Source: a virus. From it: DNA of 42,536 bases. A program made the position numbers and the translations under genes. The notes beneath the pieces are model-generated. The model ran no database searches. It saw only the letters and a program-made list of their open reading frames with translations, and was not told where the DNA came from. The DNA lies in the IMG/VR virus record IMGVR_UViG_3300009506_001156, positions 1 to 42,536 of that record; one strand, written 5' to 3'. This document shows, in pieces, positions 4,512 to 27,814 of this stretch (within the stretch, counting starts at the first letter, position 1; every line of letters starts with the position of its first letter).

Positions 4512-5201
4512 ATGCGAATTATGGCCCTAATTCCGGCCCGTAGCGGCAGCGTCCGGGTGCCGACTAAGAACATCAAAGAACTCGGCGGTATCCCCCTTAT
4601 GGCATGGTCTATACTTGTTGCTAGGGCGTGTCGGTTAATCAATGAGGTCATCGTGTCAACGAACGATTTAGAATATGGCCGAATCGCCTTGGATTGGGGA
4701 GCTGAAACGCTTATCCGCCCGGATCATCTGGCAACCGCTGAATCAACGGATTTTGGCGTTGTGAAACACCTCCTCGAGCACTATCAGCCTGATCTGATCG
4801 TGTATCTCCGTCCCACTACTCCGTTTCGGACGAGCGAATTGGTTGACGATGCCATCAGACTTATGTCGGTCCCTGGGTATGATAGTTTGCGCTCCGTCGA
4901 GGAGATGGTTGAATCGGCCTGGAAGTGCTTTCGAATAAAGGCGGGGCTATTAAAACCGCTGACCAAAACAGATTACACCGATAAGGCAAACCAAACCCTG
5001 CCGAAGACTTATCACCCTAATGGTTATGTGGATATCATACGCAGCGAGATCGTGCGCCAGGGGTTCCTCTGGGGCGCCGGGAGGTATGCGTTTGTGACGC
5101 CGCGGACGGTGGAGATCGATACGCCAGAGGATTTCGAATATGCAGAATGGAGAGTTCAGAAGGGAAGGGAATTCAATTATGCAAAAGCTGAGAATCGATA
5201 A
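4512..5201 (+). CDS. neuA: NeuA-like CMP-nonulosonate (acylneuraminate) cytidylyltransferase
   Basis: 229 residues, normal length for the family. The nucleotide-binding start is IPARSGSVRVPTKNI (residues 7-21), followed by STND (49-52), LRPTTPFR (99-106) and a C-terminal EIDTPEDFEYAEW, all in the usual NeuA order. The family couples CTP to sialic, legionaminic or pseudaminic acid, giving the CMP-sugar used by transferases; KdsB-type use of Kdo is less likely because KdsB reads differently around the first motif. AGGAGG lies upstream (4492-4497). It begins a cassette that also holds a NeuB-like synthase. Which sugar is made cannot be read from the sequence. Confidence 0.85.
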   Translation: MRIMALIPARSGSVRVPTKNIKELGGIPLMAWSILVARACRLINEVIVSTNDLEYGRIALDWGAETLIRPDHLATAESTDFGVVKHLLEHYQPDLIVYLRPTTPFRTSELVDDAIRLMSVPGYDSLRSVEEMVESAWKCFRIKAGLLKPLTKTDYTDKANQTLPKTYHPNGYVDIIRSEIVRQGFLWGAGRYAFVTPRTVEIDTPEDFEYAEWRVQKGREFNYAKAENR

Positions 5202-6318
5202 CTGGACGGATTGGGTTGATTTCACTTCAGGGGGAATCTTTTCGGCGATCCTGGGTGCCGAAGCCGATTACCTGCTGCCTAAGTCAGGGCAAGTCTGCTG
5301 TTATGGGGCGCGATATTCCAACCCCGTGACTGATCGGTATATTGACATGCTTCTTGAATTCACGGGATTTGAGGCCGCGGCCCTGTTTTCAACCGGGTCT
5401 GAGGCCACCGAAGCATTCTGGCGCTGCATGAGGATTTACAGCAGTAAACCAGGCATTTGGGGAGGGTTAGTAAACCCCGATGAGGTAGGGGGCGAAAAGC
5501 CGATCTGCGATGCTATGCATGGGTGGACGCTGGGGGCTTTGATTATGGCCGGCCGGATGTCCTGGCCGGAACTTGGCGTTTTCCCAGAGCTTGGCGCATC
5601 CAGGTTCGGGCAGATGCCGGACATGACCTGCGGGATGATCATGGAGCCGTACCATGCCCCTTCTGCACAGTGGCACAAGGTCGATCCAACGATTAACCGG
5701 GTCAAGAGCCTCCAGAAAGAATTCCCGGCAATTCCTTTGTGCCTGGATGAGATACAAGCGGGATTCGGACGTACTGGCAAGTTGTTTGGGTATGAGTGGT
5801 ATGAGGATTTCCGGCCTGATTTCGTTTGTGTTGGCAAGGCCATGGGCGGGGGCCTACCCTTAGCAGCACTCCTGGGACCGAAGGAAATCCTCGAAGATGA
5901 CAAAGTTCTGAAGGCTGCCAACTTGCACAGTACGCACTCCGGCAATCCCGCCATGTGCTATGCGGGCATTGAAGTTCTGCTCGCCATCCAGGAACAGAAT
6001 CTCATTCAGCAGTCGTATGAAAAGGGCCTCTTGTTTGCTCACTTACTACAAAATTGCGGGGTTCGGGTTCATGCCGGCCGCGGACTCCTGGCGGGACTTG
6101 AATTTGAATCAACGGAGATGGCCTCTGAAGTGGCGAAACGATGTCAGGAAAGGCAACTCCTGGTGGTCGATACGGGCCGCAAGTGGGTCAAGCTGGGGCC
6201 GCCATTCACCATACCCATACATGAGCTGGAAACCGGCTCGAAAATCCTGAAAGAGGTCATTGAGGAGGTCAAGGATGCCCATTCTGAGACATGTGGGGAT
6301 CAAGGTGGCGAACCTTGA
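5179..6318 (+). CDS. Class-III PLP aminotransferase / aminomutase
   Basis: 379 residues with the fold-type I signatures of the class-III group: STGSEAT (residues 71-77) holding the PLP phosphate, LDEIQAGFGRTG with Asp190 for the pyridine nitrogen, and VGKAMGGGLPL with the Schiff-base Lys220. It most resembles the glutamate-1-semialdehyde aminomutase branch and is a little short for it. I start at ATG 5179 (AAGGGA upstream) rather than at 5140, which lies deep in neuA. The 23-base overlap with neuA and the tight link to the VOC gene suggest one pathway. The substrate is unknown; a keto-sugar or amino-acid side chain of the surface glycan are both possible. Confidence 0.85.
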   Translation: MQKLRIDNWTDWVDFTSGGIFSAILGAEADYLLPKSGQVCCYGARYSNPVTDRYIDMLLEFTGFEAAALFSTGSEATEAFWRCMRIYSSKPGIWGGLVNPDEVGGEKPICDAMHGWTLGALIMAGRMSWPELGVFPELGASRFGQMPDMTCGMIMEPYHAPSAQWHKVDPTINRVKSLQKEFPAIPLCLDEIQAGFGRTGKLFGYEWYEDFRPDFVCVGKAMGGGLPLAALLGPKEILEDDKVLKAANLHSTHSGNPAMCYAGIEVLLAIQEQNLIQQSYEKGLLFAHLLQNCGVRVHAGRGLLAGLEFESTEMASEVAKRCQERQLLVVDTGRKWVKLGPPFTIPIHELETGSKILKEVIEEVKDAHSETCGDQGGEP

Positions 6319-6640
6319 GCGAGCCATATCATGGTATGAAGGGTTGGGTTTTGTCCTTCAGGATAAGCCCAAGGCCGAAGATTGGCATTCACAGCTCCTT
6401 TATATCGCCAAGATGAAGGCAAAAGACGCAAGCGGAATGATTGAGCTGATTCAATCGATAAAAACCTGGCCCAACCATTTCGCTTTAACCGTGCATGATG
6501 TTTCACGGGCAACACAAGGACTTTGGAAAGGCCCCGCAAAGGGTATCGCGCATTATGCCCAGGATCCTTCGGGTAATGTAATAGAATTCGTGGAGGAAGA
6601 GGATGCCGACGATAATCGCGGAGATCGGGATAAACCATAA
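6275..6640 (+). CDS. VOC (glyoxalase/dioxygenase fold) protein
   Basis: 121 residues with two beta-alpha-beta-beta-beta modules. The metal positions are His6 (LRHVGIKV), Glu57 (GMIELIQ), His68 (NHFALTV) and Glu104 (NVIEFVEE), that is the H-E-H-E pattern of metal-binding VOC enzymes such as glyoxalase I or epimerases. GGAGG precedes ATG 6275, and its 5' end overlaps the aminotransferase. The 3' end overlaps neuB by 38 bases. An epimerase or isomerase step on a sugar precursor would fit the context, but the fold alone does not define the reaction. Confidence 0.75.
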   Translation: MPILRHVGIKVANLERAISWYEGLGFVLQDKPKAEDWHSQLLYIAKMKAKDASGMIELIQSIKTWPNHFALTVHDVSRATQGLWKGPAKGIAHYAQDPSGNVIEFVEEEDADDNRGDRDKP

Positions 6641-7442
6641 CGGCGATGTGAAGATAGCCCGCCAGCTTATGTCCATGGCCAAAGATTGCGGGGCGGATAT
6701 GGTGAAATTCCAGAAACGTACTATCGATATTGTCTATTCACCAGAAGAATTGGCAGCGCCGCGGGAAAGCCCTTGGGGGACCACCAACGGCGACCAGAAG
6801 CGCGGCCTCGAATTGAACTACAAAGAATATCGGCAGATCAATGAATACAGCAAGGAACTTGGGCTCCCCTGGTTCGCTTCCGCCTGGGACAATGGGAGCC
6901 TAGACTTTCTTGAGCAATTCAACCCGCCTTGCCACAAAGTCGCCTCCGCTATGATAACGAACTACCCTTTCCTGGAGACCGTCGCTCGACAGAAGAAACT
7001 GACGTACATCTCCACCGGGCTCCTTCCTGATTTTCGAGCCATCGATAAAGCTGTCACCTGTTTTCATTACCATGAGTGTCCTTTCGTGATCATGCATTGT
7101 GTGGGTGAATACCCATGTCCTCCAGGTAATACCAATTTAAGCATGATACAGACCCTGAAGGAGAGATATCCCGGGGAAAGGGTAGGTTTTTCTTCCCATG
7201 CGGTTAGCCCGGTCATCGGCGCCCTGGCAGTCATATGGGGGGCGATCGCCATCGAGGCGCATATCACACTGGACCGCTCGATGTATGGAAGCGACCAAGC
7301 GGCCAGCCTCGAGCGGCCGGGGCTGCAAAAGCTGGTTGATTATTGCCGGATAGCTGAGTCCGCCAGAGGGCATGGGGCGAAATTCATGACACAGACGGAA
7401 GCGAAAATAGCAGAAAAGCTCAGGTGGTTTGAACGTGCCTAA
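6603..7442 (+). CDS. neuB: NeuB-like nonulosonate (sialic acid) synthase, catalytic domain only
   Basis: The protein starts with IIAEIGINHNGD (residues 4-15) and keeps VKFQKR, GEYPCPPGNTNL, GFSSHAVSP and IEAHITLDR..GSDQAASLE, the conserved run of the NeuB TIM barrel. NeuB enzymes condense phosphoenolpyruvate with ManNAc or a related 6-carbon amino sugar to make a nine-carbon nonulosonic acid. At 279 residues it is shorter than cellular NeuB (about 340) because the C-terminal SAF/antifreeze-like domain, which closes the active site of the dimer partner, is absent. It sits two genes after a NeuA-like gene. No epimerase/hydrolase or dehydratase for the precursor is present, so that would have to come from the host. 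Confidence 0.85.
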   Translation: MPTIIAEIGINHNGDVKIARQLMSMAKDCGADMVKFQKRTIDIVYSPEELAAPRESPWGTTNGDQKRGLELNYKEYRQINEYSKELGLPWFASAWDNGSLDFLEQFNPPCHKVASAMITNYPFLETVARQKKLTYISTGLLPDFRAIDKAVTCFHYHECPFVIMHCVGEYPCPPGNTNLSMIQTLKERYPGERVGFSSHAVSPVIGALAVIWGAIAIEAHITLDRSMYGSDQAASLERPGLQKLVDYCRIAESARGHGAKFMTQTEAKIAEKLRWFERA

Positions 7443-8772
7443 TACGCTTTTGATTTCCTATGATAACGGGTCGCATATTCCATTTTTCCCTCAAAATATC
7501 TTCTATCTTGCCGGTGCCATTAAAAAAGCCGGATTTAAGGCGCCAGCTATCTGGCATCAGGATATTCACCATGGAACTGAAAAAGATCTGCTGCGAATCC
7601 TTGATGATGCCGAGTTTGATTTTATCGGGCTAGGATTTGTGGCCGGTTATTACCAATATCGAAAGGCTAAAGCCATAAGCGAGGCCGTAAGCCAATCGAA
7701 GCGTCGACACAAGTTCAAGTATACTCTTGGCGGGCATGGACCGGCAGCAGAACCCGAATGGTTCATGGAGAAATTCGAGGCTGATGCCGTTGTGGTGGGG
7801 GACGGTGAGGACGGTATCGTTAGGATCTTGAAGGGTGAAATGGGATTAATCCATTCCGCCCCTTGTGAAGACGACGCCGCGCCTATCTCAACTTACAACG
7901 ATTTCCCATTGGACATCTACCGTCTTATCCGTTGGCCAACGTCAAGGCGGGAAGATTTTTGTATGCCGATCCTCTCGAGCCGCGGCTGCAAATGGCATTG
8001 CTCATTTTGCTATCGGATGCGAAAGGGCTATCATATGCGTTCAACCGAGGCGATACTCGACGAAATGCGGTTCTTGCATAGGCAGGTACAGATCAATCAC
8101 TTTCAATTCTCTGATGAGCTCCTTATGGCCTCTGAGAACCGCACAACGGAGATATGTGAGGCGATCATCAATTCCGGCATGAAGGTAAAATGGGACTGCA
8201 ATGGCCGGCTGAACTACGCAAAGCCAAAAATCCTAAAGCTTATGAAACGCGCTGGCTGTGAATACATTAACTATGGGATTGAAAGCTTAAACCAGGATAT
8301 CCTGAACGGTATGGGGAAAGGATTAACCGTTGATCAAATCCATCGCGGCGTCGAAGCTACCAGAGCGCATAATCTTAGCCCTGGATTGAATTTCATTTGG
8401 GGGTTTCCTGGAGATACCGTTGAAAATCTCGATCTCGCTGTGAAGTTCCTAATCAAGTACGATCCATGCGACGAGTTGCGTACCATCCGACCCGTGACTC
8501 CTTATCCCGGCACGCCGCTCTACTCTCGCGCCATTAAGGACGGCTTATTGGCTGGCACCAAAGACTTTTACGAGCACAAGCACCTAAATAGCGATCTCTT
8601 TACCGTCAATTTCATGGACATCTCGACTGAAAAGGCGCATTTCCATTTGAAGATGGCGAATCGTAATCTTTACAGGAATTATCTTGACAAACGATGGGAC
8701 CAATTCGGACGACAAACAGATAACCTTTACAGGGATCTCGACACATCCTTTAGGGGGTTTCGTAGTGTTTGA
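7435..8772 (+). CDS. B12-binding-type radical SAM enzyme
   Basis: About 445 residues. The N-terminal part (to about 135) looks like a cobalamin-binding Rossmann domain (FIGLGFVAGYY..., TLGGHGPAAEP, VVVGDGEDG) but lacks the classical DxHxxG, so B12 may not be bound. The radical-SAM core starts with the cluster motif SSRGCKWHCSFCYR (Cys185, Cys189, Cys192), followed by INYGIESLNQDIL and NFIWGFPGDT. Relatives include BchE-like cyclases and methyltransferases of antibiotics and lipids. GTG 7435 has AGGTGG upstream and overlaps the neuB stop; TTG 7429 is an alternative. The substrate is unknown; a sugar or peptide modification tied to neuA/neuB is the obvious idea. Confidence 0.85.
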   Translation: MPNTLLISYDNGSHIPFFPQNIFYLAGAIKKAGFKAPAIWHQDIHHGTEKDLLRILDDAEFDFIGLGFVAGYYQYRKAKAISEAVSQSKRRHKFKYTLGGHGPAAEPEWFMEKFEADAVVVGDGEDGIVRILKGEMGLIHSAPCEDDAAPISTYNDFPLDIYRLIRWPTSRREDFCMPILSSRGCKWHCSFCYRMRKGYHMRSTEAILDEMRFLHRQVQINHFQFSDELLMASENRTTEICEAIINSGMKVKWDCNGRLNYAKPKILKLMKRAGCEYINYGIESLNQDILNGMGKGLTVDQIHRGVEATRAHNLSPGLNFIWGFPGDTVENLDLAVKFLIKYDPCDELRTIRPVTPYPGTPLYSRAIKDGLLAGTKDFYEHKHLNSDLFTVNFMDISTEKAHFHLKMANRNLYRNYLDKRWDQFGRQTDNLYRDLDTSFRGFRSV

Positions 8773-8779
8773 AATCATA

Positions 8780-8806
8780 TGTGAAATAATTTTAGACCAT
8801 TTCACA
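8780..8806. promoter_or_regulatory. Perfect 8-base inverted repeat in the only AT-rich gap of the cassette
   Basis: TGTGAAAT (8780-8787) and ATTTCACA (8799-8806) are perfect complements around an 11-base centre. The gap (8773-8849) is the only real break between cassette genes and is AT-rich. There is no T-run after it, so an operator or RNA hairpin is more likely than a terminator. Confidence 0.4.
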
Positions 8807-8849
8807 CGTAAAATTTCAATAGTACAACCAAAACAATTGGGACTCTTCG

Positions 8850-9653
8850 ATGTTTAACTTCCTCCACCTCGAACTAACCTCTCGTTGTAACAAGTCCTGT
8901 TGGATGTGCGGCCGCCGCAAGATGGAGCGGGAATATCCACAACTCTGCGATTGGGGGGATATGCCTTTTGAAATGGTGGAAAAGGTCGCGGAGGAGATTA
9001 ACCGGATTGATGCTGTTGGGCAGGTGATCCAGTTCCATAATAACGGGGAACCCCTGCTTTACCCCCGGCTGGGGGAGGCCCTGACGCTATTTGCATCTCT
9101 GGGGCGTATCCGGCAGTTTAACACCAACGGCAAACTGCTGATGGAGAAAGCAAAGGAAATCATCGGCAACCTTGATGTGCTTACTGTGTCCGTCGTGGAA
9201 AACGACCCTGAAGGCGATGAACAATATGAAATGGTGAAAAAGTTTATCGAAATCAAAGGCAGCAACGCGCCGAAACTTGTGTATCGCCTATTGGGCCGCA
9301 TAGATCATCCGGAAAGATGGGAAAAGCTACCTGGCCTGATCGCCAGGAGGACGATACACTCCCCGGACGGCTCTTTCGATTACCAAGAGGAACCCGTAGT
9401 GCCGGAGATAGGGATCTGCCTAGACTTATTGACGCACTTAAGCGTCGATCGCTACGGCAACGCCAGCATGTGCGTAAGGTTTGATCCCGATGGATATTTA
9501 ATTATCGGCAATGTCGCCAGTGAGTCGTTGCTCAAAATGTGGCATGGAACGAAGAGGCGAATTTATATCTCGTATCATAAGCTAAAAGACAGGGATACTA
9601 TGGCGGGGTGCCAAAGATGCGAGTATTGGGGAATACCGAGGGGGTCGGCGTGA
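8850..9653 (+). CDS. Radical SAM / SPASM-domain protein
   Basis: The core cluster motif is SRCNKSCWMC (Cys13, Cys17, Cys20), followed by NNGEPLLYP (residues 64-72), the SAM-binding GE motif. The C-terminal SPASM-like region has Cys190 in GICLDLL, Cys208 in GNASMCVRF, an IIGNV..ESLLKMWHG stretch and Cys254/Cys257 (CQRCEYWG). SPASM enzymes usually carry extra iron-sulfur clusters and act on peptides, proteins or sugars. 267 residues, slightly short. It is followed without a gap by a methyltransferase (GTGA overlap). Whether it works in the same path as neuA/neuB is inferred from position only. Confidence 0.85.
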   Translation: MFNFLHLELTSRCNKSCWMCGRRKMEREYPQLCDWGDMPFEMVEKVAEEINRIDAVGQVIQFHNNGEPLLYPRLGEALTLFASLGRIRQFNTNGKLLMEKAKEIIGNLDVLTVSVVENDPEGDEQYEMVKKFIEIKGSNAPKLVYRLLGRIDHPERWEKLPGLIARRTIHSPDGSFDYQEEPVVPEIGICLDLLTHLSVDRYGNASMCVRFDPDGYLIIGNVASESLLKMWHGTKRRIYISYHKLKDRDTMAGCQRCEYWGIPRGSA

Positions 9654-10405
9654 AAACAAACGAAGAACTAAAAGCGAAATACGACGAGATGCACAAGCAG
9701 GGGCCATCGGCATGGTTTAGTGACGGCACAGAGGAACGAGAGATGATTCTCAATATGGGCCGTCCATGGGAAAGTCGCTATATACTTGAGATAGGCTGTG
9801 GAGAGGGCGATTTGGCTGCATTGATGGCCAAACAAGCCGCGTATGTCTATGCTTGTGATTATTCCGAGGAAGCCATTAAAAAGGCCCGCAAGAAATACCC
9901 AAAAGTCCTATTTCGCGTAATGGATTTCCATGAAAACCCACGCCGCTATGATCGAGTGGTTATGCAAGGCGTCCTTGAGCATCTTGACGATCCCTGGGGA
10001 GAACTAAGATGGATCATCAATAATCTTCTTTCGCCTGGCGGTGACATTATAACTAGTTCCCCATGTTTCTTGAACCCACGCGGTCTGATTTGGATGACAT
10101 TACACATGCTCGGGGCGGTGATGAGTAGAACCGATCGGCGTTTTTTGCATCCTAGCCAGTTCCGGGATTTTTGTATTGACCAGGGTTACCATTTTTCAAT
10201 GATGGATTGCGATTATTCATGGGGAAACGAAAATATTATGGTTGACGATTTCAGCCAGCGCATTCCTCTCGCCTTGAAAGATGGTGGCATACCAGTGGAT
10301 AATAATGAATTGGAGAACTTTCTCCATTGGGTTTACTATGACTACTTGAAATCGGGATCCAAAGGGAATTTCGGCGCAACGATGGTCTACCATATAAAAA
10401 CATGA
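9650..10405 (+). CDS. Class I SAM-dependent methyltransferase
   Basis: 251 residues. Motif I is ILEIGCGEGDL (around residues 46-56), the acidic end of beta2 is YACDYSEEAI, and a post-motif reads VMQGVLEHLDDPWGEL, as in UbiE/sugar and small-molecule methyltransferases. HPSQFRDFC follows, as in many SAM methyltransferases of polysaccharide loci. GTG 9650 overlaps the stop of the SPASM gene (GTGA) and has GAGGGGG upstream, so I prefer it to the ATG at 9608. Likely partner of the cassette enzymes, adding a methyl group to a sugar or lipid; DNA or protein substrates are not excluded. Confidence 0.8.
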   Translation: MKTNEELKAKYDEMHKQGPSAWFSDGTEEREMILNMGRPWESRYILEIGCGEGDLAALMAKQAAYVYACDYSEEAIKKARKKYPKVLFRVMDFHENPRRYDRVVMQGVLEHLDDPWGELRWIINNLLSPGGDIITSSPCFLNPRGLIWMTLHMLGAVMSRTDRRFLHPSQFRDFCIDQGYHFSMMDCDYSWGNENIMVDDFSQRIPLALKDGGIPVDNNELENFLHWVYYDYLKSGSKGNFGATMVYHIKT

Positions 10406-10652: not shown

Positions 10653-10917
10653 GTGGAAAAAGGGACAATCAGGGAATCCGCGGGGGCGGCCTCCGGGAAA
10701 GACCTCCGCTGAAATACTTATTGCCGCCCTTGTCCGCCAAGGTAAGAAACGAGGACAAAAATGGGAAGATAGAGTCGCGGAGATGTTCTGGACTTCCGAG
10801 CGGGTGATGGTCGCAGTGCTTTCCAAGATAATCGCCGACCTTCAAAAGATCGACAATAACGTATCTGGTGGTTTGACGGTGACAATAAACCGCTTTGGAG
10901 ATAACGATCCCAAATAA
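10639..10917 (+). CDS. TerS-like DUF5681-type protein
   Basis: 92 residues starting MNKGKWKKGQSGNPRGRPPG. The KxGQSGNPxGRP motif is the signature of the DUF5681 domain found beside phage terminases. A basic helical middle (ILIAALVRQGKKRGQKWEDR) and a beta end follow. It stands exactly where P22-like phages have the small terminase subunit and overlaps terL by 23 bases, so it probably recognises the packaging site. I start at ATG 10639; no strong Shine-Dalgarno is present, and the first codons lie in the inverted-repeat cluster. Confidence 0.65.
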   Translation: MNKGKWKKGQSGNPRGRPPGKTSAEILIAALVRQGKKRGQKWEDRVAEMFWTSERVMVAVLSKIIADLQKIDNNVSGGLTVTINRFGDNDPK

Positions 10918-12244
10918 CTGGGTTCCCAGGCCCGATCAAATGCCCCTCTGGTGCTTTATGGAGGCCGGCGGCAAAAGAGCTGTTGAGGTCGCCCACCGTC
11001 GTTGGGGCAAGGATGACGTTGCCCTCCACTTTACGGCTGTGGCCGCCATGCAGCGAGTGGCCAACTACTGGCACATGCTCCCGCAGTATTCGCAAGCCCG
11101 CAAAGTTGTATGGAACGCAGTCAACCCGCGCACCGGAAAGCGCCGCATCGATGAAGCTTTCCCCCCTGAAATCAGATCGGCGACCCACAACCAGGAGATG
11201 TCCATCGATCTGGTCAACGGGTCTATCTGGCAGCTCGTAGGGTCGGACAACTATAATACTCTCGTGGGATCCCCTCCCGCGGGAATTGTCTTCAGCGAGT
11301 GGGCGCTGGCCAACCCCATGGCCTGGGCCTATTTGGCGCCGGTTCTTGAAGAGAACGGCGGTTGGGCTCTTTGGATCTACACCTCCCGCGGCAACAATCA
11401 TGGAAAAACCATGCTGGCCCATGCCCAAACCACAGAGGGCTGGTTTTCACAAAAGCTGCCCGCCGACGAGACTCCCGTTTTCAAGCCGGAACAGCTCGAC
11501 ATAATCAAGGGCGAATATCAAACCATCTTCGGCCCGGAACTTGGGGAGATGATTTTTGAGCAGGAGTATTTTTGCAGCTTCGAAGGCGCCGTTTACGGAT
11601 CGTATTATGCCAAGCAAATGGCTGAAGCCCGCAAGGAAGGCCGGATCTGTCCAGTTCCCCATAATCCGTCCATCGAAGTCGATACGTTTTTTGATCTCGG
11701 GGTTGATGATTCCATGGCCATTTGGTTCATGCAGCCGGTGGGCAGGGAGTACCGATTTGTGGATTATTACGAAAACACCGGATACGGACTCGAGCACTAC
11801 GCTAAGAAGATCAAGGAAAAGCCTTATACCTACGGAAACCATTGGATGCCCCATGACGCCAGTATTCGGGAGATGACCAACAACGAGATCGCGTTGAGCC
11901 GGAAAGAAGTCGCTGAAAATCTAGGCATCAAACCGATAACCGTGGTGCAAAGAGCCAGGAACATGGACACGATTATCAACGTTCATATTCCAGCCGTCAG
12001 GAGCATCCTGTCGCAATGTGTTTTTGACGAAAAGAAATGCGACATCGGCATCCGCGCCTTGGAGGGCTATCACGCCGAATACGACGAGGAAAAGAAGGTA
12101 CTTGGCAATAGGCCGGCGCACGATTGGTGCAGTCATGGCGCGGATGCTTTTAGAACCTTTGCCGTCGGATACAAGGAAAAAATGCCGGATGCGGACCTCA
12201 CGCACTTCCCAAATTACAAGAGAAAAGAGGCCTGGCTGTTCTGA
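10895..12244 (+). CDS. terL: Terminase large subunit
   Basis: 449 residues. The ATPase shows the arginine-rich Walker A variant HRRWGKDD (residues 34-41) and Walker B GIVFSEW (129-135), where the usual Asp before the catalytic Glu134 is Ser. The nuclease has Asp265 in FFDLGVDDS and a late Asp in HDWCSHGADAFRTF. The PRPDQMPLW adenine-binding start is typical, so the gene must begin upstream of ATG 10940. TTG 10895 is the only convenient start but has a weak ribosome-binding site. TerL pumps DNA into the prohead and cuts it. The next gene begins at TGATG. Confidence 0.92.
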   Translation: MEITIPNNWVPRPDQMPLWCFMEAGGKRAVEVAHRRWGKDDVALHFTAVAAMQRVANYWHMLPQYSQARKVVWNAVNPRTGKRRIDEAFPPEIRSATHNQEMSIDLVNGSIWQLVGSDNYNTLVGSPPAGIVFSEWALANPMAWAYLAPVLEENGGWALWIYTSRGNNHGKTMLAHAQTTEGWFSQKLPADETPVFKPEQLDIIKGEYQTIFGPELGEMIFEQEYFCSFEGAVYGSYYAKQMAEARKEGRICPVPHNPSIEVDTFFDLGVDDSMAIWFMQPVGREYRFVDYYENTGYGLEHYAKKIKEKPYTYGNHWMPHDASIREMTNNEIALSRKEVAENLGIKPITVVQRARNMDTIINVHIPAVRSILSQCVFDEKKCDIGIRALEGYHAEYDEEKKVLGNRPAHDWCSHGADAFRTFAVGYKEKMPDADLTHFPNYKRKEAWLF

Positions 12245-14109
12245 TGGATGAAAAAGACATCATCAAGGAAATCAGGGACCGATACGACGAAGCCTCCACC
12301 GCCTGGGACGAAGCCTATGATGAAATGCTCGATGATCTCAATTTCGTCTCCGGGGACCAGTGGCCTCATGATCTCCAGAAAGAGCGCGAAATTGATGGTC
12401 GGCCCTGCTTGACGATTAACAAGCTGGCGAATTACGGGGATCAGGTTATCGGGGATATCCGAATGAATGAGCCCTCCATCAAAGTCAAGCCGGTCGATTC
12501 CGGGTCTGATCCCGATGTGGCGGAAATACTTACGGGATTGATCCGGAATATCGAAGTGCAAAGCCGGGCCGAGATTGCTTACGATTCGGCGGTAGAATCG
12601 GCGATCTTGTGTGGAAAAGGAACTTTTAGGATCATCACGGAATACGCCGATGAAGATAGCTTTGACCAGGACATCCGCATCAAGCGGATCAAGAATCCCT
12701 TCACCGTTCTTTGGGATCCCTCCGCGCAAGAATTCGACAAATCGGATGCTAGGTATTGCATCATTACCGAAAGGATTCCGCGTGATGAGTTCGAACGACT
12801 TTATCCTGACGCTGCCCTGACAAATGCTCCCGGTGACAAGGATAAAGACATTCATTGGCGGGACGATAGGACGATTCGGGTCGCCGAGTATTTTGTCAAG
12901 CGGGACAAGAAAAAAACCGTCTACTTACTCCAGGATCCGACGACCGGGAAGCAGCAGGTTAGGGATGAGATTGAGCCGGGATGGGAAACCGTCAAGACCC
13001 GAAAGGTCGATAGCTACAAGATCGAGTGGTACAAGACGAACGGGATTGAAATCCTTGAGGGGCCGAATGAATGGCCTGGGCGGTTGATCCCCATATGCGA
13101 GGTGTGGGGCAAGGAGCTCATTATCGAAGGCAAGACGATCTACCGCGGCATGGTGCGCCACGCCAAAGACCCCCAGCGTCTTTACAACTACAGTCGCAGC
13201 CACGGCGCCGAGGTAACGGCGCTGGCTCCCAAGGCGCCGTACCTTGTTACAAAGTCCATGATTCAGAATTATGCCCCAATTTGGAAGCAAGCACACAAAA
13301 AGAGCTATCCCTACCTGCCTTACGAACCAGACCCGTCAATGCCTGGTATCATACCAACCAGGGCTTTACCCATTTCGGTATCCACCGCAATTACCCAGGA
13401 GATCATGATCTCCGATCAGGAGATGCACGATACCACCGGGCTCCAGCAAGCCTCATTGGGCCAGAAAAGCAACGAGAAAAGCGGCAGGGCCATCCTTGCG
13501 AGGCAGCGCGAGGGCGATGTGGCCAATTTCTCGTATTATGACAATCTGGGCAGGGCCTTGACTTACGCTGGTAAGGTTCTGCTGGATCTCATCCCGAGGA
13601 TCTACGATACGGAACGGATTGTCAGGATCTTCCAGGAGGACGGGTCAGAGCAATTCGTGCCGGTAAATCAACCGATCCCCATGCAGATGCCCAATGGGGA
13701 GGTAATCGAAAAAATTTTCGATCTGACGACCGGCAAATATGATGTCGTGGTATCCATCGGTCCTTCGTATACGACTCAGCGCGACGAGGCGGCAGAGATG
13801 ATGATGGAATTCTTGCGAGTGATTCCGGCTGCTGGCCCCGTCATTGCCGATCTGGTTGCCAAAAACATGGACTGGCCAGGGGCGGAAGAGATCTCTGAAC
13901 GATTGAAAGCTCTTCTTCCCCCACAGGTCGCGGGGGCCTCTGGTGGGGCTCCTCCTCCCCCTCCCATGCCCCCCGACCCCACCGCGGAGCTCAAGGCGCA
14001 AAACGAAAGAGTGAAATTAGAAGGTAGACTATTGGATAACCGCAAAAAGAGCATGGACATAGCAGCTCAGGAAGCGGGAGCGGGAGGGTTCACGTTTGGC
14101 AATGCGTAA
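12244..14109 (+). CDS. Portal protein, P22 family
   Basis: 621 residues with the P22-portal opening: RYDEASTAWDEAYDEML, FVSGDQWP, RPCLTINKLANYGDQVIGDI and MNEPSIKVKPVDSGSD. The central crown/wing region reads YDSAVESAILCGKGTFRI and NPFTVLWDPSAQEFDKSDA, and a C-terminal coiled tail follows a Pro-rich linker (PPPPPMPPDP). It forms the dodecameric DNA channel at the vertex. It begins one base into the terL stop (TGATG). P22 gp1 is about 725 residues, so the C-terminal barrel is shorter here. Confidence 0.92.
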   Translation: MDEKDIIKEIRDRYDEASTAWDEAYDEMLDDLNFVSGDQWPHDLQKEREIDGRPCLTINKLANYGDQVIGDIRMNEPSIKVKPVDSGSDPDVAEILTGLIRNIEVQSRAEIAYDSAVESAILCGKGTFRIITEYADEDSFDQDIRIKRIKNPFTVLWDPSAQEFDKSDARYCIITERIPRDEFERLYPDAALTNAPGDKDKDIHWRDDRTIRVAEYFVKRDKKKTVYLLQDPTTGKQQVRDEIEPGWETVKTRKVDSYKIEWYKTNGIEILEGPNEWPGRLIPICEVWGKELIIEGKTIYRGMVRHAKDPQRLYNYSRSHGAEVTALAPKAPYLVTKSMIQNYAPIWKQAHKKSYPYLPYEPDPSMPGIIPTRALPISVSTAITQEIMISDQEMHDTTGLQQASLGQKSNEKSGRAILARQREGDVANFSYYDNLGRALTYAGKVLLDLIPRIYDTERIVRIFQEDGSEQFVPVNQPIPMQMPNGEVIEKIFDLTTGKYDVVVSIGPSYTTQRDEAAEMMMEFLRVIPAAGPVIADLVAKNMDWPGAEEISERLKALLPPQVAGASGGAPPPPPMPPDPTAELKAQNERVKLEGRLLDNRKKSMDIAAQEAGAGGFTFGNA

Positions 14110-15754
14110 CGCCTTGGATTACATCATGGACGAAAATGTCCTCTTGAGCGGCGTAAACGATGTTCCCAGACCTCCCATCGAAGCCTTGGCTACCATGGAG
14201 CCTACAGCTTTAGAAAGGCTTATTTTGAGACTTCCGCAGTATCTTGGGGGAGAGATGGGCGGATTGCCAAATATCATTTGGGATCCAATCCATGCGGCAC
14301 AACGATTGCCGGAGTTGGCAAGATGGGCTGAAGAATACGCCTCCGGCAAAGCGGAGTTTGATCCCTCGCTCGGTGCCGCGGCACATGTACTTACAGGGGC
14401 TGGAGTGGTTGGAGGTATACCAGGAGGCCTCCCAGCTGAATCTGCCGGGGTGGGAATTACCAGGCCGATCATACAGGCGACTAAACGGGGAGGGAAACTC
14501 ACCTTTGAGCATGTCAATCCTTTTCCGGCCTTGAAGGGCGTCAGCGCACGCACCAGAAATGTTTTTAGCCAGAACGCATTGAATTCCCGGGCCATTAATC
14601 CTGCCGCCAGAAGGGTGGCCTATCAATACACCACCTCCTCAGGGGCTCCAATAGCCGGCGTGGAAAAGGCATTTGCCAGATCGGTAAGCAAGGATCTCAC
14701 GGGCAGGTCTGTTTTTGACGACATCTGGAAGGGTGAGGTGGACAGGCGACTCTCCTACCGGACGGCGAAGACATCGAAGGGCAAGCCGTATGTTCCCTAT
14801 AACGTCGAGAGCAGGAATGTGTCAAGGGCCGAATCGGGTAGCGGCAATCTCAAGACGGCTGGCGAACTGACCGCCTTTGATACCTCCCGTGGCTGCGTCA
14901 ATTTCTGTCCTGAATGCTACGCTTTTGGTTCTGGCACTAAGAGTACGAGATTATTTGTAGAACCGACCAAGATTATTCTCAAAGGGGATTTCTACGACAA
15001 CCCGAACATGATCCGCAGGTTCGGGGAGAGCGGGGAACCGTCGATCCACCCGGACAAATTTGCCAAGGTGCGCGAGGCGTACAACGCTGCGGGCAAGGAT
15101 TTCACGCCGGCAGAATTGGACACGATCCTTGAGCCTGCCTACGATTGGAGCTATACGAACCAGCAATTTCGTAATACGAACCTGAACGCGCCGGAGGCTC
15201 ATTCTAAGGTTTTTGTCATCACCAAATTGAACTCGATCAAGAATTTCGATCCGACGGTGATCAGAAATCTGGAGGTATCCATCGATCCTCTCATACCGCA
15301 TCACTTTTTCAGGTCATTGAAAAATATAGAGAAATTGAAAGAAATGGACCCGACACTCAATATCTCTATGCGGATCAGATCGATTAGCACCTATTCGGAT
15401 GAGGTTAATGCCCTTCAAAAGATAGCTGTCGATTTCGCCAATCAGCATGATCTGCCAGTCCTCGAAACGAGGCTGAGATTCAGGCATATCGGTAGAGCGG
15501 AAAAGTACATGGTGCAGCCGGATTATTTGAAATCCGGTCCTCAATTCAAGCACGGCAGCTATAGCGTCGAGGGACCGAAGGTCAGAGAGGAAGTTAAGGA
15601 AGTCAGCCCCTTGAGCCAGATGGGGATCAAGAAGGCTAATCACTACATCTGCGACGAGGTGAACTGGGGAGGGGCGGGGGCTTGCGGAAAGTGTCAGAAT
15701 TGTCGGAGGTTTACGGGAAGGATTGAGAAGGAAGCAGAAGAATTATCCGATTAA
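14102..15754 (+). CDS. Radical SAM protein embedded in the structural module, with a long N-terminal extension
   Basis: About 550 residues. Residues 1-190 are Gly/Ala-rich with low-complexity loops (GAGVVGGIPGGLPAESAGVG) like virion-associated phage proteins. The core begins at FDTSRGCVNFCPECY (Cys265, Cys269, Cys272), a CX3CX2C cluster motif, followed by GESGEPSIHPD (near 309-319), VITKLNSI and LEVSIDPL, the usual radical-SAM order. Near the C terminus a Cys-rich knot (ICDEVNWGGAGACGKCQNC) could hold a second cluster and recalls the mycobacteriophage gp88 family. It follows the portal gene (8-base overlap) where P22 has scaffold. Either it modifies a virion protein or it travels in the virion; function unknown. 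Confidence 0.7.
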   Translation: MRNALDYIMDENVLLSGVNDVPRPPIEALATMEPTALERLILRLPQYLGGEMGGLPNIIWDPIHAAQRLPELARWAEEYASGKAEFDPSLGAAAHVLTGAGVVGGIPGGLPAESAGVGITRPIIQATKRGGKLTFEHVNPFPALKGVSARTRNVFSQNALNSRAINPAARRVAYQYTTSSGAPIAGVEKAFARSVSKDLTGRSVFDDIWKGEVDRRLSYRTAKTSKGKPYVPYNVESRNVSRAESGSGNLKTAGELTAFDTSRGCVNFCPECYAFGSGTKSTRLFVEPTKIILKGDFYDNPNMIRRFGESGEPSIHPDKFAKVREAYNAAGKDFTPAELDTILEPAYDWSYTNQQFRNTNLNAPEAHSKVFVITKLNSIKNFDPTVIRNLEVSIDPLIPHHFFRSLKNIEKLKEMDPTLNISMRIRSISTYSDEVNALQKIAVDFANQHDLPVLETRLRFRHIGRAEKYMVQPDYLKSGPQFKHGSYSVEGPKVREEVKEVSPLSQMGIKKANHYICDEVNWGGAGACGKCQNCRRFTGRIEKEAEELSD

Positions 15755-15843: not shown

Positions 15844-16479
15844 ATGTCAATAGAAATTAAAAACCATAGCGAGATCACGCTAAAGAGAAAAAACGATGTC
15901 CTCCTCATCCTCGGTGATGGCCGCACGATGCCTGAGGATCGCTCCTTATTCCGTTCCTGGGGTATACCGCACGATCTCGGGGCTATTGGCAGAAGCATCA
16001 AGATCTGCGATGGAAGGGCGGACCATTGGTGGAACGCGGATGGAGAAACCGCTATTGCTTGGGTGAAGCAAATCAAGGCGCAGTCGAAAAACGGCCTCCT
16101 GACGCATTCTTTGGGGCCTGTGGAGGGCTTTGATGTCGATTGGGATATTCAGCAACCGGACTATCACTACAAACGCATCACGGGCGAGAAAGGGCGTATT
16201 CATGGTTCCAGTTCATTGTTTGCGGCCCTCACAGCGATTGCTATGGGATACCAAAAGATCGTTCTTGCTGGATGCCCTATGGATAGCGAAGGCCATTGGT
16301 ATTTTGAGCCTACGGGGCCGGAAACCCTTGGCCCGATCTGGCTAGGGCTTGATTTTATGGCGTGGCTGGATTTCGCAAAAGATCCAAGATCAAAACGGAT
16401 TCGCTCGTTGAGCGGATATACGGCGGACATACTGGGCGAGGCAACAAAGTCGTGGTGCGATTATGATTTTATGCCATGA
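15844..16479 (+). CDS. Maf/GT42-like protein, paralogue 1 of 3
   Basis: 211 residues. VLLILGDGRTMPEDRS (GDG at residues 24-26) is followed by ADHWWNADGE, RIHGSSSLFAALTAIAMGYQ, KIVLAGCPMDSEGHWY and a C-terminal RSLSGYTADILGEATKSW. The order nucleotide-loop GDG, HGSSS, GYxxIxLxGxxMD recalls DUF115/Maf motility-associated transferases and GT42 sialyltransferases, which use CMP-nonulosonates. I recognise the similarity by pattern only. Paralogues are at 16789 and 27065. The ribosome-binding site is weak and the 89-base gap upstream shows no promoter. Confidence 0.55.
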   Translation: MSIEIKNHSEITLKRKNDVLLILGDGRTMPEDRSLFRSWGIPHDLGAIGRSIKICDGRADHWWNADGETAIAWVKQIKAQSKNGLLTHSLGPVEGFDVDWDIQQPDYHYKRITGEKGRIHGSSSLFAALTAIAMGYQKIVLAGCPMDSEGHWYFEPTGPETLGPIWLGLDFMAWLDFAKDPRSKRIRSLSGYTADILGEATKSWCDYDFMP

Positions 16480-16792
16480 CTGCCAGTTCGCATACGAAGG
16501 CGAATGCCGGAAAGGCCCCCCAGGAAAGCAAGGCTGGCCCGACGTAAGACAAGCTCCTGGGGCTACTATCCTACCGGGATGCTGGGAGGGGGTGAAGAAA
16601 GATGCCTCTGAAAAAGGGGAAGAGCAAGAAAGTAATCTCGGAGAACATCAGCGAGTTGGTGCATTCGGGGCGCCCGCAGAAACAAGCTGTAGCAATCGCG
16701 ATGTCAAAAGCGGGGAAATCGAAGTCAAAGCGCAAAAAACGAAAGTAAGAAAGCGGGGCTGGCCGAAGGGCAAGCCAAGAAAACTGCGATGA
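16463..16792 (+). CDS. Cys-rich small protein with a basic AT-hook-like tail
   Basis: 109 residues. The start [20 protein letters not shown] and the later GCWEG give four Cys in a zinc-binding pattern (CxxC...C...C with GPPGKQGWP) common in phage accessory proteins. The tail [18 protein letters not shown] is very basic and resembles an AT-hook. It overlaps paralogue 1 at its start and paralogue 2 at its end (ATGA, 16789-16792), which supports reading the whole frame. The region 16602-16748 is also open in another frame and encodes a recognisable phage protein there. Confidence 0.5.
16602..16748 (+). CDS. DUF6496-like small basic protein nested in another gene
   Basis: 48 residues, [20 protein letters not shown], then [20 protein letters not shown] and a Lys/Arg-rich end. 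This reading ([17 protein letters not shown] type) is a very common small phage protein of the DUF6496 group, usually near the head genes. GGGAGGGGG lies about a dozen bases upstream of ATG 16602. It is nested in a different frame inside the Cys-rich gene. The function of the family is not known; DNA or RNA binding is likely from its charge. Confidence 0.7.
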
Positions 16793-17487
16793 ACAAGGTT
16801 ATCTCGAACAATACCGTAGTGCCGACGAGAATCATTCCCGGGGATTACCATACTGTGCAAATCATTGAGGACTACATGAGCCTGAAGCCGAAGCCAGAAA
16901 AGGATGTGCTTTTGATCATCGGCGACGGTAGCAACGTCCTCGAGGATATTGGCGCCTGGTATGCGGTAGCGGAGGGAATTGTTGATTACGATACGATGTG
17001 CGTAAACTACTCAGCGATGATTTGCCCCCATGGCATCCAGCATTATGCCGCGGGCGACGCACACATGCCGGATATGCAGAGAGTAGCGCAATCGCTTGCA
17101 AGATCAATAGTCAAACATGCTTGGAATCCCGGCGCAACCGGCTTTGATGTGCGCTGGTTGCGGAACGGGCGGGGCGGCTGGAATGGAACGTCGGCGAACC
17201 TGGCCCTCAAAATAGGACTGGCCTTGGATTACACCCGCATCGTCCTTGCCGGCTGCCCCATGGATAACAGCGGAAATTGGTACAGGCCCTTGATACCGGC
17301 AGAAGATATCAAGGCGAGAAAAGATCATCGGTATCATTTATGGAAATGGTGCGAGATGGCAACAAGACCCATTGGCCGGTTTATCCGATCAATGAGCGGA
17401 AACACCGCCGACCTGTTCGGCAGACCAACCAGGGAGTGGCTATGCCATGAACCTGAGATCATTGAAGAGGTAATAGGACATGCCTGA
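16789..17487 (+). CDS. Maf/GT42-like protein, paralogue 2 of 3
   Basis: 232 residues. DVLLIIGDGSNVLED (GDG at 45-47) opens the conserved part. MCVNYSAMICPHGIQHYAAG, GWNGTSANLALKIGLAL, RIVLAGCPMDNSGNWY and IRSMSGNTADLFGRPTREWL follow in the same order as in paralogues 1 and 3. It is the most divergent of the three in the middle and has about 20 extra residues at the N terminus. It begins at ATGA over the previous stop and overlaps the scaffold gene by 8 bases, so it is made with the capsid proteins. Confidence 0.55.
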   Translation: MNKVISNNTVVPTRIIPGDYHTVQIIEDYMSLKPKPEKDVLLIIGDGSNVLEDIGAWYAVAEGIVDYDTMCVNYSAMICPHGIQHYAAGDAHMPDMQRVAQSLARSIVKHAWNPGATGFDVRWLRNGRGGWNGTSANLALKIGLALDYTRIVLAGCPMDNSGNWYRPLIPAEDIKARKDHRYHLWKWCEMATRPIGRFIRSMSGNTADLFGRPTREWLCHEPEIIEEVIGHA

Positions 17488-18331
17488 AGAAAACGAACTA
17501 ACCAACCTGCCAGACGCAGAGGTCAAAGCTTCTCCAGCGGAAACGCCGCCGGAAGTAACTGCCACGACCCCTACGGGGGATGAAGGCAAGCCGAAAGACA
17601 TTGATGCAACTCCAGATGCCTCCAGCCTACAGGCTGAGATCGAAGACCTCAAAAGACAGAGAGACAAGGCGAAAGAAGACGCGATCAAATGGAGAAAAGA
17701 AAAGGCAAGCGCCAGAGCGGAATTTTTTCGGGATCGTGAGCGTTCACCGGAAACCCAAGACCCTGCGGCAAAACCGGGCAAAGAACCGCAAGCCTCTGAT
17801 TTTGAGAATTATGACGATTATGTCAGAGCGGTTAGTGATGCCAGGGTGAAGGCCGCAAAAGAAGAATGGGAACGCGAAAGCCGGCAACGGCAGCTTGAGG
17901 AATCCAACAAGCAGAAAATGCAAGACTTACATGCCAAGCTGCAAGAAGGTTTTACGAAATACGATGACTTCGAGGAAATCGTATTTGACCGGTCGGCCGG
18001 GCATATCACTCCCATGATCGTGGATATCCTGGCGGACTGCGACAATCCTGCGGATGTCGCCTATCATCTGGCAAAGAATCGAATTGAAGGCGTTGCAATC
18101 AGCAGAATGACCCCGACGCAGGCCGCGAGGGCGATTGCTAGGCTGGAGAGCCAACTTGCCTCAACTCCTGCATCGCCAAAACCATTAAGCCCAAAAACAA
18201 CTAACGCCCCGCCGCCGATCAAGCCTCTCGGTGGAGCCGGAGGGTCGAGTTTGACAACCAAGGACCCAGATAAAATGACTCTCAAGGAATTCAACGAGTG
18301 GCGTCGTCAGCAGGGGGCGAAACCATACTGA
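17480..18331 (+). CDS. Scaffolding protein
   Basis: 283 residues, highly charged. A Pro/Thr-rich N terminus (residues 1-45) is followed by a coiled coil (LQAEIEDLKRQRDKAKEDAI, to about 80), a charged helical centre, and a C-terminal segment MTLKEFNEWRRQQG of the type that docks to the coat protein. It precedes the coat gene by 14 bases. As in P22 gp8 it would direct prohead assembly and leave before DNA entry. No protease motif was seen. Confidence 0.8.
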   Translation: MPEENELTNLPDAEVKASPAETPPEVTATTPTGDEGKPKDIDATPDASSLQAEIEDLKRQRDKAKEDAIKWRKEKASARAEFFRDRERSPETQDPAAKPGKEPQASDFENYDDYVRAVSDARVKAAKEEWERESRQRQLEESNKQKMQDLHAKLQEGFTKYDDFEEIVFDRSAGHITPMIVDILADCDNPADVAYHLAKNRIEGVAISRMTPTQAARAIARLESQLASTPASPKPLSPKTTNAPPPIKPLGGAGGSSLTTKDPDKMTLKEFNEWRRQQGAKPY

Positions 18332-18345
18332 CGAGGTAATGAACA

Positions 18346-19638
18346 ATGGGACATACTCATACTCTTTTGACCCCGACCGTGATTGTTCGAGAGGCCCTGC
18401 GGCTTTTCAAAAACAATCTGGTCATGGGTAATCTTGTTTACCGCGATTACGAGGCCGAGTTTCCGGGGGTGCCGAAAGTGGGCGGCAGCGTCCAGATTCG
18501 CAAACCCGTGAAATTCAAGGTGACGAAAAGCAGGGTTCGCGTCACCTCGACCATCACAGAGCAGTACATCACCTTGACCGTGGCGACCCAGGCGCACGTT
18601 TCCTGGCAGTTTAGTACGGTCGATCTCACCCTGACCATCGAGGAATACTCCGCAAGGTACATCAGGCCGGCGGCCGCGGCCCTGGCAAATCAGGTGGATG
18701 CCGATCTTTGTGGCCTATATGCGGATGTTCCGAATATGGTTTACGAATCCACTGGGTTTGTAACACCGCACACTTTTATGGTGCTTGGCAAGGCCATGCA
18801 AAAGATGGACGAAGAAGCCGTACCCCCGGATGACAGGGTGGTCGTTTTCAACCCGGCCGCGCACTGGGCTTTCGCCAACGCCCTCAGCAACTGGAATTTC
18901 AAGGAAGGCGGCGAACAGGCGCTTCGAAAGGGATTCCTCGGCAGGATCGCCAATGCCGAGATTTTCATGGACCAAAACATTAAGACGCACACCTACAGCA
19001 CCTATGTCACCGCGGCGGCTACAGAGGCGCGGGTGGCCATTTGCTCGACGGCCGATAGCGCCGCTGGTGGCGGACTGCCCACCGGGGTGGGCGTCGGCGT
19101 TTCGCAGAACCAGAAAATCCTGGTAGTCGATGCCAACGGTGGAAATACCGCAGTAGCAGTTATGGCGGCCGGCGACCAGTTCGAGATTGCTGGTTGCTAT
19201 GCGGTCAATCCCATGAGCGGGGAATCAACCGGATCACTGCGACAGTTCGTGGTCACGACCGCAGCTTATATGAGCACCGTGTCAACGGCCGTCGATACGC
19301 CGATCCCGTTCTATCCGGACATGATCCATACCGGGCCTTACAAGACGGTGGACACCATTCCGGCCCTCGGGGCCTTGGTGACAGTCTATGGCGGCACGGG
19401 CGAACCATATCCGCAGAACCTGGCATTCCATAAGAATGCCTTTGCCCTTGTGATGGTTCCCTTGGAGATGCCGGACGGCGTGTGGGGCGCGAGGGAAACG
19501 GAGGACGGGATCAGCATCCGCGTGGTGAAGGATTACGGTATTGACGCCGACGTTGAAACCATCAGGTTGGATATTCTGTATGGCGTCAAGACGATCTATC
19601 CGGAACTCGCTTGCCGGATCTACGGTGCCGAGGGTTAG
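18346..19638 (+). CDS. Major capsid protein, P22 coat family
   Basis: 430 residues, same length as P22 gp5. The start ALRLFKNNLVMGNLVYRDYE and GGSVQIRKPVKF is the usual N arm of this coat group. An inserted Gly/Ala-rich beta domain (about 220-310, GVGVGVSQNQKILVVDANGG) corresponds to the I-domain region, and the end DYGIDADVETIRLDILYGVK is the P-domain strand typical of the family. HK97 fold is expected. The gene lies directly after scaffold and should be the most highly expressed late gene. Confidence 0.9.
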   Translation: MGHTHTLLTPTVIVREALRLFKNNLVMGNLVYRDYEAEFPGVPKVGGSVQIRKPVKFKVTKSRVRVTSTITEQYITLTVATQAHVSWQFSTVDLTLTIEEYSARYIRPAAAALANQVDADLCGLYADVPNMVYESTGFVTPHTFMVLGKAMQKMDEEAVPPDDRVVVFNPAAHWAFANALSNWNFKEGGEQALRKGFLGRIANAEIFMDQNIKTHTYSTYVTAAATEARVAICSTADSAAGGGLPTGVGVGVSQNQKILVVDANGGNTAVAVMAAGDQFEIAGCYAVNPMSGESTGSLRQFVVTTAAYMSTVSTAVDTPIPFYPDMIHTGPYKTVDTIPALGALVTVYGGTGEPYPQNLAFHKNAFALVMVPLEMPDGVWGARETEDGISIRVVKDYGIDADVETIRLDILYGVKTIYPELACRIYGAEG

Positions 19639-27064: not shown

Positions 27065-27814
27065 GTGAAATCGAAGATTCACCGTCTTGTTTCGTGGTCG
27101 TGGCAAAAGCACCAGATGACGGCCAAGCAGCTTCAGACAAAAGGAAACATCATCAAGTGCGAGAGGCTGAAGTTGCTCAACGAACCGTCAATCGATTGGA
27201 GCCGCGTTAGGCGCCACGATTTCCTTGTCATCACGGGCGATGGGAACACGATGCCGCAGGACGTTGACGAATTCCGCTCCTGGGGAATTGGATATGATCT
27301 TTATTGCGTCAACAAAAGTATGCTGTTCTTTAAGGAACAGGTTGACCATTGGGCCGCAATCGATAGCGAGGAAAGTGCGTGGTTCACGCAGCATGTGAAC
27401 AAAGATATCGAGCCGTTCAAGCCGATTTTAAGGCACACGATCGGCTATTTCCCAGGCGGTTATGATGTCTGGTGGGAACAGGTGTATCCGTTCACATCCG
27501 AGTTCCAGCGCCGGGTTTTCATCGGTAACACGGGGTATTTCGCCCTTTTGACATCATTGCACATGGGATATCAAAAGATATTGCTCCTCGGTATCCCTAT
27601 GAATCATGAGCCGCATTGGTACGAACCGGAAGCCGAAATGGGTCCCAATTGGGCCGGGTTGGCTTTTACCCAATGGATGGATCTCATCATCAAGTACCCC
27701 GAAGAAGCTGACAAAGTCAGGAGCATGAGCGGGTATTCCGCCTGGATGCTCGGCAAAGCGACAAAGGAGTGGGCAGTAGATGCCGCTATCAGGCAATCTA
27801 ACAAGGTTAATTGA
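27065..27814 (+). CDS. Maf/GT42-like protein, paralogue 3 of 3
   Basis: 249 residues from GTG 27065, immediately after the previous stop. FLVITGDGNTMPQDVDEFRS (GDG at 58-60), VDHWAAIDSEESAW, FIGNTGYFALLTSLHMGYQK, ILLLGIPMNHEPHWYEPE, WAGLAFTQWMD and RSMSGYSAWMLGKATKEW match paralogue 1 closely in order and wording. It differs in a 50-residue N-terminal extension and in Asn for Asp after PM. Its ORF end overlaps the repeat protein by 35 bases. Confidence 0.55.
   Translation: MKSKIHRLVSWSWQKHQMTAKQLQTKGNIIKCERLKLLNEPSIDWSRVRRHDFLVITGDGNTMPQDVDEFRSWGIGYDLYCVNKSMLFFKEQVDHWAAIDSEESAWFTQHVNKDIEPFKPILRHTIGYFPGGYDVWWEQVYPFTSEFQRRVFIGNTGYFALLTSLHMGYQKILLLGIPMNHEPHWYEPEAEMGPNWAGLAFTQWMDLIIKYPEEADKVRSMSGYSAWMLGKATKEWAVDAAIRQSNKVN

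Follow-up and report, generated by a model that had tools for sequence, protein, structure and literature searches.

Polyvalent proteins of phages are, as a rule, encoded close to virion genes, and packaging and injection into the host have been predicted for them (Iyer et al. 2017, PMC5512222); phage ADP-ribosyltransferases (ARTs) whose genes lie close to those of terminase, portal and capsid have also been argued to be packaged (PMC9503650). Phage T4 Alt and the MuF-effector fusions are head-packaged enzymes (PMC5512222, PMC9503650); even for most known polyvalent proteins, packaging is predicted and not demonstrated. The 2017 survey, which covers 131 polyvalent domains, does not use the word 'radical' in its main text (PMC5512222), and a virion-borne radical S-adenosylmethionine (radical-SAM) enzyme was found nowhere in the literature we searched, an absence that need not extend to all literature. 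Here we describe the gene directly behind the portal gene of an uncultured P22-like phage, in a window of 42,536 nucleotides that makes up the single IMG/VR virus record IMGVR_UViG_3300009506_001156. The gene encodes a 550-residue orphan protein (the target), likely a radical-SAM enzyme, which we read, with reserve, as a head-delivered effector of polyvalent style.

The structural block runs in the order terminase, portal, target, two paralogues, scaffold and coat (Table 1), so that the target stands between portal and scaffold/coat, in the late-virion-gene vicinity that is a trait of polyvalent proteins. Its open reading frame (ORF) begins with an ATG at 14102 within the last codons of the portal gene, overlaps that gene by 8 bp, and ends with a stop codon at 15752-15754. 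The placement directly behind the portal, first proposed in a sequence-only reading of this DNA, is exact in its coordinates, and the gene upstream is a true P22-type portal gene. Because of the overlap, and because neither a terminator-like nor a promoter-like site was found on the + strand at the junction, co-translation of the target with the portal would be the natural reading.

Motifs and profile comparisons of the radical-SAM-type core

The target contains exactly seven cysteines (residues 265, 269, 272, 517, 528, 531 and 534), the first three of which form a CX3CX2C motif. A GEP-type motif, GESGEP, follows 43 residues after it, and VSID, a probable beta-4 strand, lies further on. The CX3CX2C motif arises in 0.075% of shuffles of the target protein, whereas its combination with a GEP-type motif no more than 70 residues further on arises in none of 20,000. 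The three cysteines, the GEP motif and the Cys-rich C terminus had all been named in the sequence-only reading, and a motif search of the translation returned exactly the same residue numbers.

For a comparison beyond the motifs, a generic radical-SAM profile was made from 27 genome loci that PF04055 had picked out and from the window's three other radical-SAM-type proteins. Residues 253-477 scored 12.0 bits against it, and the alignment stayed in register over the stretch between the Cys motif and GESGEP; this score was reached by none of 1265 full shuffles and by 2 of 1500 motif-keeping shuffles, in which the first 30 residues of the domain were kept. In hhalign the match to radical-SAM proteins had a probability of 91% (score 44.6), as against a maximum of 86.5% (40.7) among 100 motif-keeping shuffles. 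Single-sequence AlphaFold2 gave a poor model of the target (predicted local distance difference test, pLDDT, 37), on which a Foldseek search was uninformative; with regard to the partial TIM-barrel fold of the superfamily, the model gave only its best-scored part, residues 389-448, as a strand-helix-strand-helix unit of moderate confidence. Since the motifs are ordered, the profile and hhalign scores lie above those of the shuffles, and VSID falls in this strand-helix-strand-helix stretch, it is likely, if short of proven, that the target is a member of the radical-SAM superfamily; no subfamily is assignable to it from its sequence. The original radical-SAM call is thereby backed by motifs and profile comparison, with no curated family model matching.

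That last result weighs against the enzyme part of our reading. No model in Pfam, PHROGs or NCBIfam rose above its cut-off, even when the domain was searched alone, and PF04055 matched neither the whole protein nor the domain, a curated model being a detection threshold and not a biochemical criterion. The sole two weak NCBIfam matches (E=0.07-0.09), at residues 405-469, are in both cases to radical-SAM activases; phrog_30446 matched residues 160-228 weakly (E=0.05-0.14), and the target matched no defence family in PADLOC. The residue before the third cysteine is also atypical, a Glu instead of the usual aromatic. Together with the failure of AlphaFold2 to fold the target, these results would suit a phage protein that is rich in Cys, binds metal and imitates the motifs without being a radical-SAM enzyme. 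We judge such mimicry quite improbable, since the ordered CX3CX2C, GEP and VSID, and scores above those of shuffles that retain the motif, speak against it. The four C-terminal cysteines (517, 528, 531 and 534) could bind an auxiliary cluster, and may resemble the arrangement in GP88 (PF17338).

Neither the whole target nor its radical-SAM domain had a homologue in IMG/VR, INPHARED phages, plasmids or GTDB genomes; none was found in 386 genomes of one phylum, nor in 50 phage records, apart from the N-terminal match to a module protein given below. Several candidates were rejected. The five best open-frame matches in the 386 genomes are unrelated proteins, none with CX3CX2C; the IMG/VR search with a DNA pattern of the Cys motif, steered by an alignment whose rows 2-4 are synthetic probes written by us and not data, gave a sole match that lies over an antisense frame; and the one weak plasmid match runs antisense to an ABC-transporter gene that it overlaps. 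The lack of any homologue of the joined protein in these searches might hint at an assembly chimera, with a phage N terminus joined to a foreign enzyme. However, the gene is a single uninterrupted frame overlapping the portal gene, and the GC contents at third codon positions (GC3) of its two halves are close (0.56 and 0.62) and in line with those of the neighbours, so that a chimera appears highly improbable.

The N-terminal segment and the slot behind the portal

The first 190 residues had been taken, from their composition, for a head-associated part. As homology to structural proteins this claim fell away, since residues 1-190 matched neither known structural proteins nor the window's own structural and ejection proteins; what held was a weak resemblance of residues ~46-119, above shuffles and collinear, to a module at the N termini of polyvalent proteins. 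This segment follows the pattern LPxxA...E[FY]DPxxxxAA...GxGxxxG[IV]P...GxGI, and the module consensus is roughly LPxRAxxxSxxxxxxGxYDPxPxxEAAMLPMGTGAxAGVPxxAGExxLGAG, with residues 68-122 of the target as the clearest part of the match. The polyvalent proteins were gathered by an ART-type motif (80 IMG/VR loci kept of 559 matching), and a second collection, of 23 loci, by the N-terminal module alone. Rows 2-3 of a second search alignment are variants written by us; the loci recovered with it are real sequences, confirmed by tblastn.

When residues 1-150 were searched with phmmer against 3965 ORFs, module proteins made up 9 of the top 20 matches, compared with shuffle means of 0.7 (local) and 0.25 (full); one shuffle in 120 equalled this count. 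The remainder of the target scored 0 in the same control, and module proteins were absent from the top matches of residues 120-252. In hhalign comparisons of the N terminus with the module, the scores of the target were reached in one control by 2 of 300 shuffles and in another by none of 300. Among 50 complete phage records, the sole match was the module protein of L108 (query residues 33-109, E=4e-4 per record, or ~0.02 over all 50). A first module profile gave 11.7 bits, matched by 1 of 3879 shuffles, with members that had been picked after the query was seen. Overall the match lies above some 99-99.9% of shuffles; weighed together with the second profile and the absolute probabilities given below, the similarity of residues ~46-119 to the module is probably real, though not established.

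The module stands before several different domains, among them ART-PolyVal (PF18760, below cut-off in L045 and in gp5 of Sulfitobacter phage PhiGT1), LPD23 (PF18838, E=3e-20 in L112) and DUF7178 (PF23802, E=1e-8 in L094), as well as peptidase-like sequences, the continuation in L108 giving weak metallopeptidase-like Pfam matches. The L108 protein (L108:2128-4518), itself encoded behind a portal gene, is a chain of 796 residues built of two near-repeats, each with the N-terminal module and a HELGH peptidase-like domain. A 'GNAT-like' domain in L107 was an impression only and was dropped, as Pfam matches nothing there.

The slot behind the portal is shared with such proteins. A polyvalent-type gene starts within tens of bases of the stop of a P22-like portal gene in ~12 distinct IMG/VR contigs (L026, L027, L029, L031, L052, L068, L073, L080, L098, L100, L103 and L108), which were collected by searching for polyvalent proteins and show existence, not frequency. 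No + strand ORF of more than 180 residues across 113 portal loci carries a [GST]CX3CX2C motif, and a PF04055 protein occurs in only 1 of 50 whole phage records, as an unrelated protein of 679 residues encoded away from the portal; the target is thus unusual for its slot. In L085, L087, L088 and L089, polyvalent-type genes with an ART-type motif lie directly upstream, not downstream, of the portal gene. A conserved protein of ~120 residues (LFLARDVTHSVHLNTRSYAKHKAL...) stands directly behind the portal in many close portal relatives, among them L118, L121 and L123; where it carries an annotation, this reads 'DNA binding protein' or hypothetical.

A proposed packaged effector and the points against it

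Because the target combines a radical-SAM-type core with an N-terminal module similarity, because polyvalent-type genes occupy the same slot elsewhere, and because the literature on polyvalent packaging lends support by analogy, we tentatively favour a polyvalent-style, late-expressed and head-delivered effector with a radical-SAM domain, a reading to which we give somewhat less than even odds. Its packaging we infer; an enzyme carried by the virion and injected had been suggested in the sequence-only reading, and this idea draws indirect support from the slot and from the N-terminal segment. Late in infection the target would be expressed together with the portal and the other genes of the head, as the 8-bp overlap and the operon position suggest, and the N-terminal module might guide it into the head during assembly or through the portal, as has been proposed for polyvalent proteins. 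Once it had been ejected into the next cell, its radical-SAM domain would draw on SAM and a reductant of the host, and could modify, at an early stage of infection, either a macromolecule of the host or a small molecule. The picture in full, in which a radical-SAM enzyme is built into the head, is injected with the DNA and, within the first minutes of infection, performs radical chemistry on a target in the host, with the portal-adjacent slot as a modular effector bay and the radical-SAM domain as a new cartridge, is more doubtful still.

A number of observations weigh against this reading, beginning with the choice of members for the first module profile. The second module profile, larger and independently collected, lowered the N-terminal match instead of raising it: the target scored 6.1 bits, 68 of 9377 shuffles were as high (p about 0.004-0.01), and it was still the top match among all ORFs of the window (both profiles were kept). 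The absolute hhalign probability of the module match is only 5-7%. In the 80 closest portal relatives, which were sampled by portal, the slot is mostly filled by the ~120-residue protein or by scaffold or tail-spike-like genes. Pfam, PHROGs and NCBIfam recognise no second domain in the target, and polyvalent proteins are defined by at least two disparate domains; we therefore call it polyvalent-style and do not file it as a member. The fused architecture rests on one sequence, the whole protein having no homologue anywhere we searched. P22-type ejection proteins are encoded elsewhere (a phrog_598 gene at 28926-29660), and a [4Fe-4S] radical-SAM enzyme, if carried in a virion outside the cell, would need either to withstand oxygen or to be reassembled in the host.

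The position between portal and scaffold/coat and the overlap with the portal gene would also suit an enzyme that is bound to the procapsid by its N-terminal part and alters the phage's own head or tail proteins, by radical post-translational modification, before or during assembly. Many radical-SAM enzymes modify proteins or peptides. However, we found no precedent for such an enzyme in this slot and recognised no substrate peptide gene, and for the polyvalent-type occupants of the slot the predicted site of action is the host; we regard this alternative as unlikely.

The rest of the genome and comparison with known systems

Table 1. Positions of the structural genes and of the parts of the target protein in the window
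Feature	Positions	Strand	Evidence
Large terminase-like gene	10895..12244	+	phrog_2 E=4.6e-23
P22-like portal protein gene	12244..14109	+	PF16510 (P22_portal) E=3e-194; phrog_156
Target gene, 550-residue orphan protein	14102..15754	+	ORF; no curated family match
Residues ~46-119, polyvalent-module-like segment	14237..14458	+	Weak profile, phmmer and hhalign similarity
Residues 120-252, unassigned (linker, or front part of the enzyme domain)	14459..14857	+	Weak phrog_30446 match only
Residues 253-477, radical-SAM-type core	14858..15532	+	Custom profile, hhalign
CVNFCPEC, CX3CX2C [4Fe-4S]/SAM motif (C265, C269, C272)	14894..14917	+	Motif search
GESGEP, residues 308-313, counterpart of the radical-SAM GGEP motif	15023..15040	+	In register with profile
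VSID, residues 392-395, probable beta-4 strand	15275..15286	+	Motif; AlphaFold2 strand-helix-strand-helix 389-448
CX10CX2CX2C (C517, C528, C531, C534), candidate auxiliary iron-sulphur (Fe-S) or zinc site	15650..15703	+	Function inferred
Two paralogous genes without Pfam family, between target and scaffold	15844..16479, 16789..17487	+	
Scaffolding protein gene	17480..18331	+	phrog_8865 E=8.1e-35
P22-type coat protein gene	18346..19638	+	PF11651 E=9.2e-50

The strongest competing explanation draws on the rest of the genome, and takes the target for ordinary cargo: a moron or auxiliary gene in a variable portal-scaffold slot, encoding a radical-SAM enzyme that works in the cell, perhaps in a phage sugar or cofactor pathway, and is not packaged. 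Beside the target, the genome holds no fewer than three genes of radical-SAM type (7429-8772, 8850-9653 and 37287-38123) and a nonulosonic-acid-like cassette at 4512-10405. The next downstream gene and its paralogues are at best weakly sialyltransferase-like (phrog_4603 E=0.038, for the copy at 27065), and assorted genes fill the slot in other P22-portal phages. There is precedent in Campylobacter phages, which accumulate radical-SAM genes without packaging, 11-12 of them, interpreted as metabolic (PMC2853527). Yet cargo leaves unexplained both the likeness of residues 46-119 to polyvalent N termini and the 264 residues that precede the Cys motif, and to us it seems rather unlikely.

The cassette (+ strand) is of the nonulosonic (sialic-like) acid type and comprises CTP_transf_3 (NeuA-like), aminotransferase III, glyoxalase, NeuB, a B12-binding radical-SAM protein, a SPASM radical-SAM protein and a methyltransferase; the nearest relatives found for its NeuB, at 44-47% identity, are in Gastranaerophilales, Patescibacteria and other metagenome-assembled genomes. 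PADLOC pVip matches of the genes at 8850-9653 and 7429-8772 are probably superfamily-level and were set aside. The two paralogues downstream of the target (15844-16479 and 16789-17487) have a third copy at 27065-27814 (+); the family is 30-40% identical to its first member and has GDG, GCPM and SG-containing motifs. All three lack a Pfam family, the first has no tblastn relative in 50,697 phage records, and an AlphaFold2 model of the family (pLDDT 44) was uninformative; possibly they are transferases linked to the NeuB cassette. The gene at 37287-38123 (-) encodes a radical-SAM protein (phrog_9298 E=1.6e-26) of low GC3 (0.37) and lies directly downstream of the integrase gene on the same strand. 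Both ends of the contig (1-256 and 42305-42536) lie in a tandem repeat of one 15-bp unit, present in about 17 and 15 copies, respectively, and their 18 terminal bases are identical; the genome is thus probably circular, the contig having been broken within a minisatellite.

Regardless of packaging, polyvalent-type proteins turn up again and again in the slot immediately behind P22-type portals, and one N-terminal module that recurs before different domains offers a handle for finding effectors and a candidate packaging signal. If the target is packaged, radical-SAM chemistry would be added to ADP-ribosylation, proteolysis, acetylation and the further activities that phage-injected proteins are proposed to have, and it would take an Fe-S radical enzyme that either comes through the virion intact or is rebuilt after it, which is directly testable. 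Phages would then deliver a chemistry not previously reported for the polyvalent-type effector class.

Taken together, the target shares with polyvalent proteins (Iyer et al. 2017, PMC5512222) its place among virion genes, a segment that weakly resembles the module before ART-PolyVal, LPD23 and DUF7178, and a portal-adjacent slot that polyvalent-type genes fill in other IMG/VR phages; unlike them, it has one recognised domain, of radical-SAM type, and no hallmark polyvalent domain was detected in it. With the radical-SAM superfamily (PF04055) it has in common the CX3CX2C motif, the in-register GEP-type motif, VSID and a C-terminal Cys cluster as in auxiliary-cluster enzymes, but it stays under every curated threshold, has Glu before the third cysteine, and carries a long extension ahead of the motif. 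T4 Alt and the MuF fusions are alike in concept, as enzymes synthesised late and packaged into the head for delivery along with the DNA, which for the target is only proposed; their fold and chemistry (ADP-ribosylation and others) differ, and the target has no MuF domain. Closest in position is gp5 of PhiGT1, a P22-portal podovirus, in which a polyvalent-type gene (L010:4918-6081; ART-PolyVal E=1e-6) occupies the portal-to-scaffold interval; it differs from the target in its ART-type domain and in standing two genes after the portal, with one gene in between.

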